Shown piece by piece: positions 26,521 through 33,899 of a DNA stretch of 64,000 bases. This DNA comes from Acidaminococcus massiliensis. Its GTDB lineage: Bacteria; Bacillota; Negativicutes; Acidaminococcales; Acidaminococcaceae. Numbering within the stretch: position 1 is the stretch's first letter; every line of letters starts with the position of its first letter. The position numbers and the translations under genes were made by a program. Under the pieces are notes generated by a model. It worked only from the letters and a program-made list of their open reading frames with translations. It made no database searches and was not told where the DNA came from. The stretch is taken from the NCBI RefSeq assembly GCF_900095825.1, contig NZ_LT608315.1:324318-388317 (forward strand). The letters are read 5' to 3'.

Positions 26521-27735
26521 TTACCTTCCTAACCTCATCTTGAAATCTTCATACCCGAACCGTTTCAGCACCTTCACCGTCCCATCCTCTTCCAGCAGGT
26601 CGATGTCCGGGAGGGGCATACCGTTGAAGGTGTTGTTCTTGCAGGTGGTGTAGATAGCCATATCTCCGAAGAGCAGCAGGTCCCCGATTTCCAGGTCCCC
26701 ATCGAAGCTGTAGTCTCCAGCTACATCTCCGGCCAGACAGGTGCCGCTGCCCAGCCGCCAGGTCATCGCCCGCTCTCCCGGTTCCCCAGCACCGTAGAGA
26801 GGGGGCCGGTAGGGCATTTCCAGCACGTCCGGCATGTGGCAGGCAGCGCTGGTATCCAGGATAGCGATCTTCACATCACCGTTTTCCACGATATCCAGCA
26901 CCCGGGTGGCCAGATACCCGGCGTTCAGGGCACAGGCTTCTCCCGGTTCCAGATACACGGTGACATCCCAGGCCTTCTGGGCCCGGCGGATGCATTCTTC
27001 CAACAGGGGGATGTGGTAGCCCGGCCGGGTGATGTGATGGCCGCCCCCCATGTTCACCCACTTCATCCGGGGCAGTATATCTCCGAATTTTGCTTCTACC
27101 GCGTCCAGGGTCTTTGCCAGATCTTGGGCATCCTGTTCGCACAGAGTGTGGAAATGGATCCCGTCCAGCATATCCACCAATTCCGGAGTCATCTGGACAT
27201 CCCACTGGGCCCGGGTGGTGCCCATCCGGCTGCCGGGAGCACAGGGATCATAGATGGCATGGCCTTCCTGGGTGGAACATTCCGGGTTGATCCGGAGCCC
27301 CACGCTTTTCCCGGCTCGTTTGGCCATGGGGCCGTAGGTCTTCAGCTGCCGGGGAGAATTGAACACGATGTGGTCCGCCACCTGGCACACTTCTTCCATC
27401 TGATCTGCCCGATAAGCCCCGCAGAATACGTGGACTTCCTTCCCGGGCATGGCTTCCCGGCCCAGTTTGGCCTCATAGAGGCCGCTGGCTTCGGTGCCTG
27501 CCAAATAAGGATCCAGCACCGGATACAGGTCGTAGTTGGAAAAGGCCTTCTGGGCCAGGAGGATCCGGCAGCCGGTCCGGTCTTGGACCCCTTTGAGGAT
27601 CTCCCCGTTCCGGCGGAGGGCTGTCTTGTCCAGGATGTAGCAGGGGGTGGTCAATTGGCCGAAGGCGGCTTCCGGGGTCTTCCCCCGGAGCCCTGCAAAG
27701 GCGGGCCGCTGTTCCCGAGCCTTGTTCCAGTCCAT
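26521..27735 (-). CDS. nspC: Carboxynorspermidine/carboxyspermidine decarboxylase
   Basis: 404 aa PLP enzyme of the alanine-racemase-fold (group IV) decarboxylases. The PLP lysine lies in ILLAQKAFSNYD, near residue 63. EPGEACALNAGYLATRVLDI and the later C-terminal HxxxC-like segments fit the NspC/CANSDC family. It removes the carboxyl group from carboxyspermidine to give spermidine (or carboxynorspermidine to norspermidine). Start and the previous stop share bases (TAATG), so it is coupled to the dehydrogenase. Putrescine supply by the same operon suggests that spermidine is the product. Confidence 0.9.
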   Translation of the reverse strand: MDWNKAREQRPAFAGLRGKTPEAAFGQLTTPCYILDKTALRRNGEILKGVQDRTGCRILLAQKAFSNYDLYPVLDPYLAGTEASGLYEAKLGREAMPGKEVHVFCGAYRADQMEEVCQVADHIVFNSPRQLKTYGPMAKRAGKSVGLRINPECSTQEGHAIYDPCAPGSRMGTTRAQWDVQMTPELVDMLDGIHFHTLCEQDAQDLAKTLDAVEAKFGDILPRMKWVNMGGGHHITRPGYHIPLLEECIRRAQKAWDVTVYLEPGEACALNAGYLATRVLDIVENGDVKIAILDTSAACHMPDVLEMPYRPPLYGAGEPGERAMTWRLGSGTCLAGDVAGDYSFDGDLEIGDLLLFGDMAIYTTCKNNTFNGMPLPDIDLLEEDGTVKVLKRFGYEDFKMRLGR

Positions 27736-28994
27736 TATTTCACCAGCACCGGATCATGGGATTCGCTCCGGGGCAGGCCGTGCTTGTCCAGAGCATCCAG
27801 GAAGGGATCCGGGTCGAATTCTTCCACCGTGTGGACCCCAGGAGTGGTCCATTTCCCGGTAAGCAGCATCAGGGCACCGCACATGGCCGGCACACCGGTG
27901 GTGTAGCTAATGGCCTGGCTGCCCACTTCCCGGTAGCAGGCCTGATGGTCGCACACATTGTAGATGTAGTAGGTCTTTTCCTTCCCGTCTTTCTTCCCGG
28001 TGAAGATACAGCCGATGTTGGTCTTGCCCTTGGTCCGAGGACCCAGGCTGGCAGGATCCGGCAGCAGGGCCTTGAGGAATTTGATGGGAACGATTTCGTG
28101 GCCTTCAAAGTTGATGGGAGTGGTGGACAGCATACCCACATCTTCCAGGCAGCGCATATGGTCCAGATAGCTCTGGCCGAAGGTCATGAAGAACCGGATC
28201 CGTTTCACCCCGGGGATGTTCTTGGCCAGGCTTTCGATCTCTTCATGGTGGAGCAGGTACATATCCTTTTCTCCCACCTGGTCGAAGTTGTATTCCCGTT
28301 TGATGCTCATGGCCGGGATCTCCACCCAGTGGCCGTTTTCCCAGTAGCTGCCGGGGGCGGACACTTCCCGCAGGTTCACTTCCGGGTTGAAGTTGGTGGC
28401 AAAGGCGTACCCGTGGTCCCCACCGTTGCAGTCCAGGATGTCGATGGTGTCGATGGTGTCGAATTCATGTTTCTGGGCATAGGCGCAGTAAGCCTGGGTC
28501 ACCCCCGGGTCGAACCCGCAGCCCAGGAGAGCGGTAAGGCCGGCCTTTTCGAATTTCTCTTTGTAGGCCCACTGCCAGCTGTAGTCGAAGTAGGCGGAGA
28601 ACCCTTCTTCCTTGCAGCGTTTTTCGTAGATGGCCCGCCATTGGGGATCATCGGTATCTTCCGGTTCGTAGTTGGCGGTATCCATGTAGTTCACCCCGCA
28701 GGCCAGGCAGGCATCCATAATGGTCAAATCCTGGTAAGGCAGGGCGATGTTCATCACCAGATCCGGTTTGTAGCTTTTGATCAGGGCGATCACCTGGTCC
28801 ACCTGGTCCGCATCCACCTGGGCAGTGGTGACTTTGGTGGCGGTCTTCCCCTTCAGTTTTTCTGCCAGGGCGTCGCATTTGGATTGGGTCCGGCTGGCAA
28901 TGCACAGCTCGGTAAACACATCACTGACCTGACAGCATTTCTGGATGGCCACGGAAGCAACTCCGCCGCAGCCGATAACAAGGACTCTGCTCAT
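27735..28994 (-). CDS. Carboxynorspermidine/carboxyspermidine synthase (saccharopine dehydrogenase family)
   Basis: 419 aa. N-terminal NADP-binding loop VLVIGCGGVASVAIQKC, then a saccharopine-dehydrogenase-like catalytic domain (GFDPGVTQAYCAYAQKHEFDTIDTIDILDCNGGDHG). It condenses aspartate semialdehyde with putrescine (or diaminopropane) and reduces the Schiff base. Start ATG 28994 follows AAGGAGG. The 262-bp gap to speB contains a composite heptamer element flanked by two terminator-like hairpins, so this gene pair may be expressed at a lower level than speA-E-B or have its own promoter. Confidence 0.9.
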   Translation of the reverse strand: MSRVLVIGCGGVASVAIQKCCQVSDVFTELCIASRTQSKCDALAEKLKGKTATKVTTAQVDADQVDQVIALIKSYKPDLVMNIALPYQDLTIMDACLACGVNYMDTANYEPEDTDDPQWRAIYEKRCKEEGFSAYFDYSWQWAYKEKFEKAGLTALLGCGFDPGVTQAYCAYAQKHEFDTIDTIDILDCNGGDHGYAFATNFNPEVNLREVSAPGSYWENGHWVEIPAMSIKREYNFDQVGEKDMYLLHHEEIESLAKNIPGVKRIRFFMTFGQSYLDHMRCLEDVGMLSTTPINFEGHEIVPIKFLKALLPDPASLGPRTKGKTNIGCIFTGKKDGKEKTYYIYNVCDHQACYREVGSQAISYTTGVPAMCGALMLLTGKWTTPGVHTVEEFDPDPFLDALDKHGLPRSESHDPVLVK

Positions 28995-29256: not shown

Positions 29257-30111
29257 TTACAACAACGCCAGCAGCAGCTCCCGGACCACTTTACAGGCTA
29301 CCGCCGTAGAGGCGCCGCTGGCATCCAGCATGGGAGCCAGTTCGTTCACATCAGCGGCCACCACATTGGTTTTGGCCACCAGCCGCAGGGCGTTCAAAAG
29401 CTGCATGAAGGTGATGCCCCCGGCTTCCGGAGTGCCAGTGCCCGGAAACACGGATGGATCCAGGCAGTCCAGGTCGATGGTGAAATACACCGGAGCCTGG
29501 CTCTTTTCCAGCTCTCGGACCAGCTGTTCCAATCCCCCGAAGCTGAAGGGGTGCAGGTCCGTATGCTGCCGGGCGAACTGCCATTCTTCCCGTTCCCCGC
29601 TACGGATGCAGAACTGGTGGATCTTCCCGTCCCCGATCAAATCGTGACAGCGGCGGATCACACAGGCGTGGCTCAGTTTCGCCCCCAGGTAGTCGTCCCG
29701 AAGGTCCGTATGGGCATCGAAGTGGACGATCTGGAGATCCGGGTACTTTTTCAGCACCGCCCGGAACGCTCCTAAGGTCACCAGGTGTTCGCCCCCGATC
29801 ATAAAGGGCATTTTCCCATCCTGGAGGATAGCAGCGGTCCGGTCTTCGATGTCTTTCAGGGCCATTTCCGAACTGCCGAAACACAGTTCCAGATCCCCGC
29901 TGTCGAATACGGCGCAATCGGTCAGGTCCTTGTCCTGGTAGGGACTGTAGGTCTCCAGTCCGAAGCTTTCGTGGCGGATGGCGGAAGATCCGAACCGGGT
30001 GCCGGGCCGGAAGCTGGTGGTAGAATCAAAGGGCGCCCCGAACAGGACAATCTTGGCCTCTTCATAGGGAGCGTCGCAGGCCAGGAACGTCTCCACATTA
30101 TTTTTCAGCAT
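29257..30111 (-). CDS. speB: Agmatinase
   Basis: 284 aa ureohydrolase hydrolysing agmatine to putrescine and urea. The manganese ligands are present: GGEHLVTLG (His), VHFDAHTDLRDDYLG (DAHxD), and YFTIDLDCLDPSVFPGTGTPE (DxD plus GTGTPE). It overlaps the 3' end of speE by 14 bases. With SpeA upstream it completes arginine to putrescine, which feeds both spermidine routes encoded in the operon. Confidence 0.93.
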   Translation of the reverse strand: MLKNNVETFLACDAPYEEAKIVLFGAPFDSTTSFRPGTRFGSSAIRHESFGLETYSPYQDKDLTDCAVFDSGDLELCFGSSEMALKDIEDRTAAILQDGKMPFMIGGEHLVTLGAFRAVLKKYPDLQIVHFDAHTDLRDDYLGAKLSHACVIRRCHDLIGDGKIHQFCIRSGEREEWQFARQHTDLHPFSFGGLEQLVRELEKSQAPVYFTIDLDCLDPSVFPGTGTPEAGGITFMQLLNALRLVAKTNVVAADVNELAPMLDASGASTAVACKVVRELLLALL

Positions 30112-30979
30112 CCTTGACCCCTTCTTCCGTTTCCACTTCCTTCAGCATTTCCTCCAGGAAGGCCGGCAGCCAGAAAGCGCCCACATGGAGCCGGGTGGTG
30201 TAGTACCGGGTATGCATGTTCAAGGCTTCCCAAGCAGGAGCGTCCAGGTCGTTGATGGGATGGTACTTCTTGCTGGCAAAGCCGAAGGTCCAGTACCCGG
30301 CTGCATACGTGGGGATGTGAGCCTGGTACACCTTGCTGATGGGGAAAGTGCTGACGATCCGCTGGTGGCTCCGCTGCATGGCAATGGCATCTTCCTTGTA
30401 GAAAGGACTCCCCTGCTGGTTCACCATGATTCCGTCTTCCCGGAGGGCGTTGTAGCAACTGCCGTAGAATTCCCGGGTAAAGAACCCTTCCGAAGGACCG
30501 AAGGGATCCACAGAATCCACAATGATCAGATCATAGGAATTTTCCCGGTGGCGGATGAATTTCAGAGCGTTTTCGAAATAGATATGCACCCGCCGGTCAT
30601 CCATCCGGCAGGCATTCCCAGGCAGATAGTTCCGGCAGGCTTCCACCACCATAGGGTCCATTTCCACCAGGTCGATCTTCTCCACCCGGTCGTACCGGGT
30701 CAGTTCCCGGACCACGCCGCCGTCCCCGGCGCCGATCACCAGGATGTCCTTGATGCCCTTGTGGACGGCCATAGGTACATGGGTCATCATTTCGTCGTAG
30801 ATGAACTCATCCCGTTCTGTCAGCATCACGTTCCCATCCAGGGTCAGGACCCGCCCGAATTCCGGCGTTTCGAAAATATCGATCCGCTGGAAGTCGCTCT
30901 GCTTGGAAAACAGATGACGGTCCACCCGGAGGCTGTGCTTCACATCCGGGGTATGAAATTCACTGAACCACATTTCCAT
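30098..30979 (-). CDS. speE: Spermidine synthase (aminopropyltransferase)
   Basis: 293 aa. The decarboxylated-AdoMet-binding loop ILVIGAGDGGVVRELTRY (about residues 79-96), DPMVVEACRNYLP, and the catalytic region IIVDSVDPFGPSEGFFTREFY are typical of SpeE; GAGDGG replaces the common GGGDGG. It transfers the aminopropyl group to putrescine. The partner SpeD (AdoMet decarboxylase) is not in the window. A ribosome binding site GGGGG precedes the ATG at nine bases. Co-occurrence with the carboxyspermidine route in one operon is notable. Confidence 0.92.
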   Translation of the reverse strand: MEMWFSEFHTPDVKHSLRVDRHLFSKQSDFQRIDIFETPEFGRVLTLDGNVMLTERDEFIYDEMMTHVPMAVHKGIKDILVIGAGDGGVVRELTRYDRVEKIDLVEMDPMVVEACRNYLPGNACRMDDRRVHIYFENALKFIRHRENSYDLIIVDSVDPFGPSEGFFTREFYGSCYNALREDGIMVNQQGSPFYKEDAIAMQRSHQRIVSTFPISKVYQAHIPTYAAGYWTFGFASKKYHPINDLDAPAWEALNMHTRYYTTRLHVGAFWLPAFLEEMLKEVETEEGVKDAEK

Positions 30980-30995
30980 TGGTTATATCCCCCTC

Positions 30996-32453
30996 TTATG
31001 CTAATACATTCAGGTGCTTCAGTTCCGGATCCTCCGAACCGGTCATGCTGCAGCCCTTTTCTTTGGCGTACTGGATATGTTCCAGCACGGTTTTGGTGAT
31101 TTTTTCCCCGGGAGCCAAGAGCGGGATCCCCGGGGGATAACACATGACGAATTCACTGCACACCCGGCCTTCGCACTGTTCCAGAGGCAGGCTCACCTTC
31201 TCCGCATAGAAGGCTTCCTGGGGACTGGTGACAACCACCGGTTCCACGTATTCCTGGGTGAGCATGCCAGTGGGATCCTTCTGGTACCGGCGGCGGATTT
31301 CTGCCAAGGCGCTGACCAGCCGTTCCAGATCCTGGATCCGGTCCCCCATAGACAGGTAAGCCAGGATATTTCCGATATCCCCGAATTCGATCTGGATGTC
31401 GTAGTCATCCCGGAGGATATCATACACTTCGATGCCTGCCAGGCCGATGTCCAAGGTATGGATGCTCAGTTTGGTGTTGTCGAAATCGAACACGGAATCT
31501 CCGTTCATCAGTTCCCGGCCAAAGGCGTAATAGCCTCCAATGTTGTTGATTTCCTGCCGGGCATATTCTGCCATGTCCACCACTTTGTGGAAGATTTCCC
31601 GTCCGTGGAGAGCCAGCCGCCGACGGCTGATGTCCAGGCTGGACATCAATAGATAACTGCCGGAAGTAGTCTGGGTCAGGTTGATGATCTGGCGCACATA
31701 GCCTGCATGGACCTTGGGCCCGGTGAGCAGGAAACTGGACTGGGTCAGGCTGCCCCCGCTCTTGTGCATGGAAATAGAAGCCATATCAGCCCCCGCAGTC
31801 ATGGCGGAAACAGGCAGTCCGCTGCCGAAGTAGAAATGGGTGCCATGGGCTTCGTCGGCCAGGCACAGCATCCCTGTATCGTGGGCCATCTTCACAATGG
31901 CCCGGAGGTCGCTGCACACTCCATAATAGGTGGGATTGTTCACCATGACGGCTACCGCATCAGGATTTTCCCGGATGGCCCTGGCCACTTGATCCCGTTT
32001 CATCCCCAGGCTGATTCCCAGCCGTTTGTCCACATCCGGATTCACATAGACCGGGATGGCCCCGCAGAGCACCAGGGCGTTGATGACGCTTTTATGGACG
32101 TTCCGAGGCAGGATGATCTTATCCCCCCGTTTGCAGGAAGACAAAATCATGGATTGGACAGCGCTGGTGGTCCCCCCCACCATCAGAAAAGCCCGGCTGG
32201 CGCCGAAGGCATCGGCGGCCAGCTGTTCCGCCTCCCGGATTACCGAAACCGGATGGCACAGGTTGTCCAGGGGCTTCATGCTGTTCACATCCACTCCCAC
32301 ACATTTTTCTCCCAGGAACTCCGTCAGTTCTGGATTGCCCCGGCCCCGTTTGTGGCCGGGCACATCAAAGGGCACCACCCGCATCTTCCGGAACCGTTCC
32401 AGGGCTTCATAGATGGGTGCCCGCTCCTGTTTCAACCGATATTGCTTTTCCAA
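30996..32453 (-). CDS. speA: Arginine decarboxylase, Orn/Lys/Arg decarboxylase fold-I family
   Basis: 485 aa, the length of Bacillus SpeA/YaaO-type proteins, not of the 650-aa E. coli enzyme. PLP-lysine region SISMHKSGGSLTQSSFLL (Lys near residue 226) and LADEAHGTHFYFG are diagnostic of the family. Arginine is the most likely substrate because speB follows; lysine or ornithine cannot be excluded by eye. The start is a TTG at 32453 with GGGAGGG seven bases upstream, an unusual weak start. A strong terminator and a long structured RNA precede it, so it may be governed by attenuation. Confidence 0.88.
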   Translation of the reverse strand: MEKQYRLKQERAPIYEALERFRKMRVVPFDVPGHKRGRGNPELTEFLGEKCVGVDVNSMKPLDNLCHPVSVIREAEQLAADAFGASRAFLMVGGTTSAVQSMILSSCKRGDKIILPRNVHKSVINALVLCGAIPVYVNPDVDKRLGISLGMKRDQVARAIRENPDAVAVMVNNPTYYGVCSDLRAIVKMAHDTGMLCLADEAHGTHFYFGSGLPVSAMTAGADMASISMHKSGGSLTQSSFLLTGPKVHAGYVRQIINLTQTTSGSYLLMSSLDISRRRLALHGREIFHKVVDMAEYARQEINNIGGYYAFGRELMNGDSVFDFDNTKLSIHTLDIGLAGIEVYDILRDDYDIQIEFGDIGNILAYLSMGDRIQDLERLVSALAEIRRRYQKDPTGMLTQEYVEPVVVTSPQEAFYAEKVSLPLEQCEGRVCSEFVMCYPPGIPLLAPGEKITKTVLEHIQYAKEKGCSMTGSEDPELKHLNVLA

Positions 32454-32487
32454 GCTCTTTCCCTCCCCAGTATTTTTTACTCCTGTA

Positions 32488-32816
32488 CAAAAAAACGCAA
32501 GCTGCCCCCTTGCAGCTTGCGTTATAAGGTCTCACCCGGTATTTCGGTTTGCTTCTTTCTGGGAATCCCCGTTACGAACGACTCTTATTGACCGTTTCAC
32601 AAGTCTGCGCACAGACGCATTGCGGTTATGAAGTAACCAACTTATAAAAGTTGAACCTGCAGGTTCAATCAATAAGGCTGCAAACCAGTTGCCGCCAGTT
32701 CGGCAGTGGACCCGGCTGTCCGTATGGCCTTGACCGGACAGCTGCCCCTAAAGGGCAGGACTCCTGTCCAGTGGTCCTGTGATGGATCTGAAAACCCGTG
32801 ACCGAATCTTCAAATC
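32488..32816 (-). ncRNA. About 330-nt structured RNA upstream of speA, class unknown
   Basis: Bounded by a consensus promoter (32851-32823) and an intrinsic terminator (stem 32523-32512 with 32505-32494, then seven Ts) only 35 bases before the speA TTG. Inside, successive stems are visible on the minus strand, including GGACAG/CTGTCC enclosing CTGCCC/GGGGCAG, TGCCG/CGGCA, TTGAACC/GGTTCAA, AACTT/AAGTT, GGTTA/TAACC and GTCTG/CAGAC. It could be a riboswitch-like attenuator sensing arginine or polyamines, or an independent RNA. I checked for T-box, SAM, lysine, glycine, RNase P, tmRNA, SRP and 6S hallmarks and did not find them. Confidence 0.65.
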
Positions 32817-32822
32817 GTAAAA

Positions 32823-32851
32823 ATTTTAACATACCCCCTCCCCGTTGTCAA
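32823..32851 (-). promoter_or_regulatory. Consensus sigma-70 promoter for the RNA/speA operon
   Basis: TTGACA (32851-32846), 17-base spacer, TAAAAT (32828-32823) on the minus strand. The predicted start is near 32816. It is the best sigma-70 match seen in the window. Confidence 0.85.
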
Positions 32852-32921
32852 TTTCATCTTGTCTTCCCCTCCTCCCCGTGCTACCATGGGGACGGACTTT
32901 TTCGAAGGGAGCTGGTTTGGG

Positions 32922-33899
32922 ATGACGCGGGCGGAATGGGTACGGAGCCAGATACGGAGCCCCTGGCACTGGGGGAGTATGCTAGCATTGTGGGGACTGG
33001 GATATTACACGTTGGGCTGGGCAGGCCGGGGGCATATGACCGCCGCCATGGCAGGCTGGGGTCTGTTCCTTTTGGTGGAAACCGCCCCCATGCTGTGGAC
33101 CATGCTGGCCTTTGCGGGAGCCATGCTGTTCCTGTCCCGGATCTTTCCACCGGCGGCCATTATCTTTATCATCATCGGCATCGTGTTCTTCATCCTCCGG
33201 ATCCGCTACGTGATCCAGAACGCCCAGCTGCTGGCCAGCGGCTTCCTGGTGTACCTGGTGTACTATTATCTCTTCGCCGATCACATGCGGCTGGGCGGGA
33301 AACTGGTGGAAGTCTGCTACAGACTGCTGACCCTGGGCCATCTCATCGTCCCCCCCTGGCCCCTCCGGCAGCTGCTGGTCTATCCCACCCTGCTCCTGGC
33401 CGCCGGGCTGCCGGTGCTCCTGGTCCATCTGTTTCTCTGGATGGCCTACCGGAAAGGGTATGAAAGCCGCACCGCTCTTACGGTGCTGTTCGGCCTGCCC
33501 CTGGTGGTGATTTCCTTCCTGCTGCCGTTCCTGAAGATTTTGGGAGCCTTCGACGGAGCCGCCTTCTCCAACACCGGCCACACTGGACACATGGGCGGGG
33601 AGGGATTCCACGGCACGGGAGAGGGCTATGTCCCGGCAGACGGCCACCCGGTCCCGGTCCATCCTGTGAACGGCTATATCCGTTCCACCCCTGGAGGAGG
33701 CACCACCTATGTCCATCCCCATGTGGCCACCAATCCGGACGGGATCCTGGAAAACAACCTGTCCTACCACGGTCCCCATCCCGCACCGGTGTCTGCGGGG
33801 GTTCCCCACACCCCCGCAGGCACCGGCCACACGGTCCACGGACCCAATGTGGATACGGTACCGGGAGTGGGGAAGGAGAAAAAGGAAAAGGAGCTGTGA
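32922..33899 (+). CDS. Polytopic membrane protein with His/Gly/Pro-rich C-terminal tail, function unknown
   Basis: About 325 aa from the ATG at 32922 (AAGGGAG eleven bases upstream); an ATG at 32886 and a TTG at 32859 are alternatives. At least five hydrophobic helices occupy about residues 20-215 (SMLALWGLGYYTLGW, AAIIFIIIGIVFFIL, LLASGFLVYLVYYYLF, LLVYPTLLLAAGLPVLLVHLFL, LTVLFGLPLVVISFLLPFL). The last about 105 residues are low-complexity and rich in His, Gly, Pro (GHTGHMGGEGFHGTGEG, VHPHVATNPDG, SYHGPHPAPV) and end in a charged KEKKEKEL. This could bind metal or be a flexible linker. I do not recognise the family. It is divergent from the polyamine operon. Confidence 0.75.
   Translation: MTRAEWVRSQIRSPWHWGSMLALWGLGYYTLGWAGRGHMTAAMAGWGLFLLVETAPMLWTMLAFAGAMLFLSRIFPPAAIIFIIIGIVFFILRIRYVIQNAQLLASGFLVYLVYYYLFADHMRLGGKLVEVCYRLLTLGHLIVPPWPLRQLLVYPTLLLAAGLPVLLVHLFLWMAYRKGYESRTALTVLFGLPLVVISFLLPFLKILGAFDGAAFSNTGHTGHMGGEGFHGTGEGYVPADGHPVPVHPVNGYIRSTPGGGTTYVHPHVATNPDGILENNLSYHGPHPAPVSAGVPHTPAGTGHTVHGPNVDTVPGVGKEKKEKEL

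Follow-up and report, generated by a model that had tools for sequence, protein, structure and literature searches.

A conserved leader RNA upstream of spermidine genes in Acidaminococcus massiliensis is a candidate polyamine riboswitch or attenuator

Acidaminococcus massiliensis possesses, upstream of its speA-speE-speB operon, a structured leader RNA that combines a core already known as an Rfam family with a larger architecture ending in an intrinsic terminator. Within the window, the 64,000-nucleotide stretch of contig NZ_LT608315.1 that was analyzed, this leader comprises about 330 nt between promoter and terminator on the minus strand. We conclude that it is probably a cis-acting attenuator of the spermidine operon, most likely an off-type riboswitch that responds directly to polyamine (spermidine). 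The architecture of the leader, its association with spermidine genes, its conserved structure and the complementarity of an internal strand to the terminator arm are results of computation; the off direction, the preference for spermidine over putrescine, the role of the RNA itself as the sensor and the binding of a ligand are all inferred.

The speA leader and its Rfam core

The original prediction, made from the letters of this region, had placed a consensus promoter and a strong intrinsic terminator around a series of successive stems that contained no real open reading frame and ended just ahead of the TTG start of speA, and each of these elements was confirmed (Table 1). Transcription is inferred to start near position 32816. 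A scan of 1.4 kb on both strands found two promoter-like sites, as compared to 0.4 +/- 0.7 in shuffled sequences. The minimum free energy (MFE) of the segment is -129.5 kcal/mol versus -101.6 +/- 5.9 in shuffles (z = -4.7); the opposite strand folds nearly as well (z = -4.5), so that folding cannot assign the strand, which is assigned as minus by the promoter, conservation and covariation. The end of the T run lies approximately 35 nt from the speA TTG at 32453, and the leader therefore possesses what is expected of a transcription-attenuating leader, with its intrinsic terminator placed after the promoter and only a small gap before the gene. Open reading frames of 42-55 amino acids overlap the leader on the minus strand, none of which looks real. 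Among 112 related leaders, at most 37 have an AUG at any one alignment column, indicating that there is no widely shared AUG-started leader peptide, and this candidate was rejected. Upstream of the promoter, a 346-amino-acid open reading frame of uncertain start codon (32859-33899, plus strand), whose letters by eye resemble those of a membrane protein, is transcribed divergently.

Table 1. Features of the leader and the downstream operon, in coordinates of the window
Feature	Position	Strand	Evidence or remarks
Promoter TTGACA-N17-TAAAAT, TG ahead of -10	32823..32851	minus	11/12 consensus matches
5' hairpin P0	32785..32816	minus	14 pairs in MFE fold; counterpart in 112 aligned relatives 73% paired, above all 200 shuffles
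Core, Rfam RF02440: P2/P2a/P3, near-invariant GGCCAUACGGACAGCC + GCCGA	32700..32777	minus	61.2 bits
Central domain: P5 (UUAUUGA:UCAAUAA), P6, P7, P8, P9	32585..32675	minus	alignment and covariance model
P7 5' strand UAUAAGU	32640..32646	minus	
GCAGACUUGUG with P7 3' strand, putative antiterminator strand	32598..32608	minus	10 pairs with terminator 5' arm, one bulged A
P10 hairpin counterpart, diverged (GAGUC...GAUUC)	32563..32584	minus	by eye; standard P10 letters changed in the window's clade
Intrinsic terminator and T run	32487..32523	minus	stem 32523-32494, 12 pairs, 7 GC
speA-like Orn/Lys/Arg decarboxylase, TTG start	30996..32453	minus	PF01276, 233 bits; NCBIfam matches all under cut-off
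speE, polyamine aminopropyltransferase	30098..30979	minus	NF002010, 369 bits (cut-off 260)
speB, agmatinase	29257..30111	minus	TIGR01230, 281 bits (cut-off 174)
Carboxy(nor)spermidine synthase/dehydrogenase-like	27735..28994	minus	NF043000, 412 bits (under cut-off 800); PF16653 + PF03435
Probable carboxyspermidine decarboxylase (nspC-like)	26521..27735	minus	inferred from the translation alone, without HMM support

The sole Rfam match in the leader is to RF02440 (SpF59_sRNA, "ldcC RNA"), which spans model positions 1-54 of 54 (32777-32700) at 61.2 bits against a gathering threshold of 37.2; family membership is thereby met, and the family is present as a single copy in this genome. Because the model is only 54 positions long, most of the leader falls outside it. 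Rfam models the core only, labels it 'Gene; sRNA' and has catalogued it, yet the database records that we saw carry no function. Extending the Rfam listing to E = 5 yielded two other families, both far under their cut-offs, and no family besides RF02440 was found over the RNA in 16 related loci. A housekeeping RNA was rejected, as RF02440 alone was near or above its cut-off; an FMN riboswitch was rejected because the FMN family has no match in the window leader, and a SAM riboswitch because no SAM-clan match was found in 32440-32860 to E = 5 or over the RNA in the 16 loci. The original prediction did not recognize that the core is a catalogued family, RF02440. The finding that would have refuted the original prediction, a clear match to a housekeeping RNA, was not obtained from Rfam, and the covariation and the conservation upstream of other speA genes that it had proposed as a check are both present. 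A separate SAM riboswitch was observed about 1.1 kb from the RNA at one locus (L017).

Conserved structure, distribution and downstream genes

Conservation, as read from the RF02440 loci of the window's family, extends over approximately 250-300 nt. The consensus consists, from 5' to 3', of P0; the core helices P2, P2a and P3 with GGCCAUACGGACAGCC and GCCGA; P4; P5 (UUAUUGA:UCAAUAA), which encloses P6, P7 (UAUAAGU:ACUUGUG), P8 and a variable P9; P10, a hairpin of the form GAGUAGUAAAAGUA..UUUGCUAUAUAGACUC; and the terminator. APC-corrected covariation calculated without an assumed structure (112 sequences, effective number 75) placed pairs of P2, P2a, P3, P4, P6 and P8 in the top 90, which lower down mix in unpairable column pairs that reflect relatedness. 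RNAalifold, applied to the 112 full-length rows, returned only the core and two hairpins, and the helices were therefore set by covariation and by eye and then tested. P0, P2, P2a, P3, P4, P5, P6 and P8 exceeded all 200 shuffles in both pairing and double changes over the 112 sequences, with P2 98.6% and P3 100% paired, each with double changes, and P10a was near significance (1/200 and 2/200 shuffles as good in pairing and double changes, respectively). Pairing in P7 was not above shuffles (41/200; double changes 3/200), nor was P10b (22/200 in pairing and 69/200 in double changes); both helices are too conserved for these tests to be informative. Within the core, a CGG:CCG pseudoknot likewise varies too little for a covariation test.

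A separate 33-row alignment of P5-P10 had 93.2% of its cells paired, versus 31-46% when slid by 1-3 columns, and 14 doubly changed pairs versus 3.1 in shuffles. These rows, aligned for the model R1 described below, were selected by eye from 48 candidates, the 15 omitted being mostly of odd length or form, and the result thus leans to the typical structure. A long-range pairing of 5' GAGUC with 3' GACUC (68% of cells, above all 200 shuffles) was left unused rather than excluded; the GACUC letters pair locally in P10a at 91%. The combination expected of a metabolite riboswitch, a conserved structured domain with covariation, is present. Within the core, 8 of the 112 rows carry G rather than A at column 106, which lies two positions past the closing strand of P2, and those rows have a C-G instead of a G-C pair in P3, one further row differing; this pattern at columns 85, 98 and 106 suggests either a tertiary contact or shared descent.

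RF02440 is present in 19 of 59 genomes of the window's family. The RNA lies beside the speA operon in 19 of the 21 genomes that encode a close SpeA (at least 69%), two such genomes being without it, and in none of the other 38. In genome G019, inspection by eye found no copy of the RNA at a close speD-speA operon. Among named genomes, a pattern scan found at least 116 loci with the core; 80 loci with organism names are among the matches listed, which include Paenibacillus, Bacillus/Neobacillus, Lachnospiraceae, Oscillospiraceae, Phascolarctobacterium, a Christensenellaceae metagenome-assembled genome (MAG) and one spirochaete MAG. At locus L070, on the contig labelled as a spirochaete MAG, a diverged RNA precedes speD-speA-speE-speB, which may represent horizontal transfer or a binning error.

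The outer domains were also searched for independently, using a covariance model (R1) built from P5-P10 only, with no part of RF02440 included. Among 398 genomes drawn from the phylum, RF02440 was found in 18 and R1 in 24 (18 genera and 15 families by assigned labels), including all 18 that were RF02440-positive; at least five of the 24 had supplied a training sequence. The six additional genomes have no RF02440 match, two of them none to E = 0.1, and all six R1 matches lie directly before speA (2) or speD-speA (4). As the model is blind to genes, the result argues strongly for a single functional unit. Searches over more than 40 genomes apply stricter filters, and some weak matches were therefore lost in the 59- and 398-genome scans.

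The genes behind the RNA share a common theme. In the window they form the polyamine operon of Table 1, whose last gene we take, from its translation, to encode a carboxyspermidine decarboxylase. Across 148 core-pattern loci, a relative of one of five reference proteins starts within 630 nt downstream in 123, the first such relative being speA in 58, speD in 40, carboxyspermidine dehydrogenase in 24 and speE in 1; the remaining 25 comprise one speA locus, 16 with potA, the ATPase of the spermidine/putrescine importer, and 8 without a match. Two potA proteins were compared to NCBIfam, one scoring 567 bits (NF043075, cut-off 550) and the other, which is shortened, 496 bits, below that cut-off, and 376 bits with TIGR01187 (cut-off 356); the other potA assignments rest on tblastn matches to these two. 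Four further RF02440 loci without the exact core pattern precede speD. Eight core loci have only 46-451 bases downstream and could not be checked. Thus, a gene of spermidine synthesis or uptake (speA, speD, speE, carboxyspermidine dehydrogenase or potA) follows in 144/144 checkable loci out of 152, and in 150/150 when the six R1-only loci are included, which fulfils the expectation of an association with one metabolite. Not all of these loci are independent, some being from the same genome or near copies (e.g., L003 and L031, L016 and L091). Spermidine is the factor that best unites speA, speD, carboxyspermidine dehydrogenase and potA, putrescine ranks second, and arginine, agmatine, lysine and SAM are not common to all of them. 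At locus L088, a gene for a P-II-like nitrogen regulator (72 bits, under cut-off) lies between the RNA and potA, 197-593 nt past the core, an uncommon pairing of nitrogen signalling with polyamine uptake.

The modules of the RNA are not always retained together. Among 141 core loci with at least 300 nt available, 105 have the core, the ACUUGUG strand, P5 and P10 by pattern; 11, including that of the window (L001), have only half of P10; 15 lack P10 and keep core and strand; 6 have P10 and lack the strand or P5 by pattern; and 4 (L024, L029, L032 and L132) have the core only. The window's clade (L001, L011-L013) retains the core and P5-P9 and differs in the letters of P10. Conversely, in the six R1-only loci the core pattern is missing and P10 and the strand persist, L175 keeping traces of the core by eye. 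This independent loss or change of core and P10 would suit two sensing parts. It is conceivable, although we would not advance it as the probable case, that the RNA represents a new, widespread and unusually modular class of large polyamine riboswitch, in which the core and P10 modules are separately lost or changed, the ACUUGUG strand stays, and the two modules could be two sensors; these could respond to two polyamines, or to a polyamine and a second signal, and feed one switch. In the compact core-only leaders L024, L032 and L132, a UAACAUC beside the core is by eye complementary to a GAUGUUA that each terminator arm contains, giving the impression of a rebuilt antiterminator; L029 has the appearance, by eye, of a damaged copy.

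The putative antiterminator strand and the proposed switch

The 3' strand of P7 is complementary to the 5' arm of the terminator. Of the 148 core-pattern loci, 13 lack an ACUUGUG-like strand, 128 of the other 135 yielded a terminator, and 125 of these pass -12 kcal/mol; removal of near copies left 108 non-redundant loci, in which the pairing of 18-nt leader segments with their own terminator 5' arm was compared to pairing with the arms of other loci. The segment containing CUUGUG pairs at -11.6 kcal/mol with matched and -9.6 with swapped arms (z = -10.4; 0/1000 permutations), segments overlapping CUUGUG rank next, and all others scanned are within |z| 2.3. The scan covered the 110 nt preceding the strand and about 80 nt beyond it, with the 5' hairpin included in the window's leader only, and in a few rows (e.g., L054 and L133) the pattern marks the wrong strand, which adds noise. 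Swaps within gene classes gave z = -8.1 overall, with -5.9 for speA, -5.8 for speD and -2.0 for potA; the carboxyspermidine dehydrogenase class alone showed no difference between matched and swapped arms (z = 0.2), and neither did swaps between nearest relatives (50 better, 19 equal, 39 worse, p = 0.47). The evidence for the antiterminator therefore consists of old divergence and a complementarity shared by all loci, rather than recent covariation. The pairing takes the form of ACUUGUG with CGCAAGU in many loci, of AUCACUUGU with ACAGGUGAU in L014 and L015, and of CAUCAUCU with AGAUGAUG in L082. In the window leader, GCAGACUUGUG (32608-32598) is the best of all scanned 18-nt segments against its own arm, at -13.5 kcal/mol, the next separate segment reaching -10.8. 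Because this strand also supplies the 3' half of P7, formation of that helix and of the antiterminator is mutually exclusive. The terminator is followed closely by the gene, with a median gap of 43 nt, at most 120 nt in 102 of 110 loci and a maximum of 299, leaving little space for a separate promoter; a count of promoter-like sites in the relatives was too permissive to be used.

A competing antiterminator is thus supported by complementarity, with the qualification that the nearest-relative swap was null and that fold energies in the window favor the terminator. The window leader folds to -129.0 with P7 and the terminator and to -114.8 with the antiterminator, and P7 is still favored in a chain that ends at the terminator 5' arm. 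A read-through state would therefore require folding kinetics or a factor, unless the energy parameters mislead. In 101/101 loci the duplex formed by the antiterminator is more stable than that of P7 taken alone, a comparison that omits P5, P8 and P9.

On the basis of these mutually exclusive pairings, we propose the following switch. Transcription would begin near 32816 on the minus strand. When polyamine is low, ACUUGUG and the letters just before it would pair with the 5' arm of the terminator, permitting polymerase to continue through speA-speE-speB and on to the genes for the carboxyspermidine enzymes. With abundant polyamine, the core and central domain would keep ACUUGUG in P7, under P5, with the polyamine presumably steadying P5 and P7; the terminator arm would then be freed, the terminator would form, and an RNA of about 330 nt would be released.

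Alternative readings and relation to known RNAs

The same attenuator might be read by an RNA-binding protein or a ribosome instead of sensing a ligand itself, the protein holding P7 or P10 and thereby setting termination. A protein could bind at long stretches that hardly vary, of which the P10 hairpin is one, and the preference of the window's free RNA for the terminated fold would suit an antiterminating factor. We nevertheless judge this unlikely, given the absence of an AUG column shared beyond 37 of the 112 leaders and the size, several covarying helices and 15-family breadth of the RNA, which resemble those of metabolite riboswitches. As for which metabolite a riboswitch would sense, arginine or agmatine, the substrate and product of the operon's first enzyme, might be expected from the position of speA, which is the first gene found behind the RNA both in the window and in 59/144 checkable core loci. 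The RNA, however, also precedes speD, whose product uses SAM, as well as carboxyspermidine dehydrogenase and potA, and since only spermidine and, less well, putrescine are common to all of the downstream genes, arginine and agmatine are poor candidates and a riboswitch for either is very improbable. Among the ligands named in the original prediction, spermidine is hence favored with putrescine second, and arginine and agmatine are not.

A stand-alone, trans-acting small RNA that ends before speA by chance is suggested by the discrete pneumococcal RNA, with SN20 at 318 nt (PMC2887815) and srn235/M7 at 327 nt (PMC12323649), by the sRNA type that Rfam assigns to RF02440, and by the lung fitness value of 0.05 given for srn235 and SN20 in a profiling table (PMC3395615), for which an effect on the operon could equally account. 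Such an RNA would have little reason to remain before spermidine genes in 150/150 checkable loci, with its terminator a median of 43 nt from the gene and with an antiterminator that is useless in a free RNA, and we give this reading hardly any weight, although a trans effect of the RNA released on termination is still possible. The original prediction had left the choice between an attenuating riboswitch and an abundant small RNA; gene position, the short gap and the antiterminator lend good support to an attenuator, without demonstrating direct sensing of a ligand.

The core of the window RNA matches, end to end, the 54-position model of the family that includes the pneumococcal RNA variously termed F59, SN20, srn235 and Spd_sr49. 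That RNA likewise lies before an arginine decarboxylase gene (SP0915/SP0916) and has a similar length, 318 or 327 nt. SN20 lies before SP0916 at 869478-869791, is 318 nt by table with coordinates that span 314, and was guessed to be an FMN switch (PMC2887815); F59 is given as 82 nt (PMC3395615), srn235/Spd_sr49 (M7) is 327 nt by its coordinates (PMC12323649), and SP_0916 is arginine decarboxylase (PMC7531197). The central domain, P10, the terminator and the antiterminator differ in falling outside the RF02440 model, and in six genomes the outer domains occur without an RF02440 match. No streptococcal sequence was compared, and the presence of outer domains in pneumococcus rests only on the Rfam core and the length.

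Published pneumococcal physiology fits an off switch in part. Deletion of potABCD, encoding the polyamine importer, lowered the major polyamines and raised speA 16.9-fold and speE 14.4-fold by qRT-PCR (PMC8540371), and in RNA-seq pathway genes rose 1.4-1.9-fold under the transport inhibitor AMXT 1501 (PMC10887117), both as expected; RNA-seq of the same potABCD mutant showed these genes unchanged (PMC8540371), and DFMO, expected to lower polyamines, lowered pathway genes (SPD0815, -1.5; PMC10887117), neither of which fits. A full-text search of the literature, outside of which lie most subscription journals and all preprints, found no paper that calls this RNA a polyamine switch, and term searches of PMC11109978 and PMC2864571 gave no mention of it as one.

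We regard the leader as a candidate for a new class of polyamine riboswitches or attenuators, similar in its proposed mechanism to the SAM-I-variant spermidine riboswitch and not a member of it. The latter (PMC10853860) is an off switch with an intrinsic terminator and a competing antiterminator, found before speE, speB and ldcC; it is, however, a modified SAM-I aptamer whose consensus was drawn from 13 representatives, whereas the window RNA has no match to the SAM clan (CL00012). Two candidate elements in PMC8632094 also precede polyamine genes: the potE motif, which is restricted to Veillonella, precedes an antiporter gene and has no obvious expression platform, and the odc1 motif, which is alpha-proteobacterial and named uORF-25-1.

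Convincing natural polyamine riboswitches are few; in PMC10853860, earlier evidence for them is called unconvincing and rare variants are described. The reading proposed here is directly testable, as it names both a strand to mutate and candidate ligands. If it is true, an RNA present in 15 families of one phylum would provide what is probably a far commoner way of maintaining spermidine balance, and both the orphan family already in Rfam and the pneumococcal 'small RNA' whose lung-fitness value is low would gain a function.
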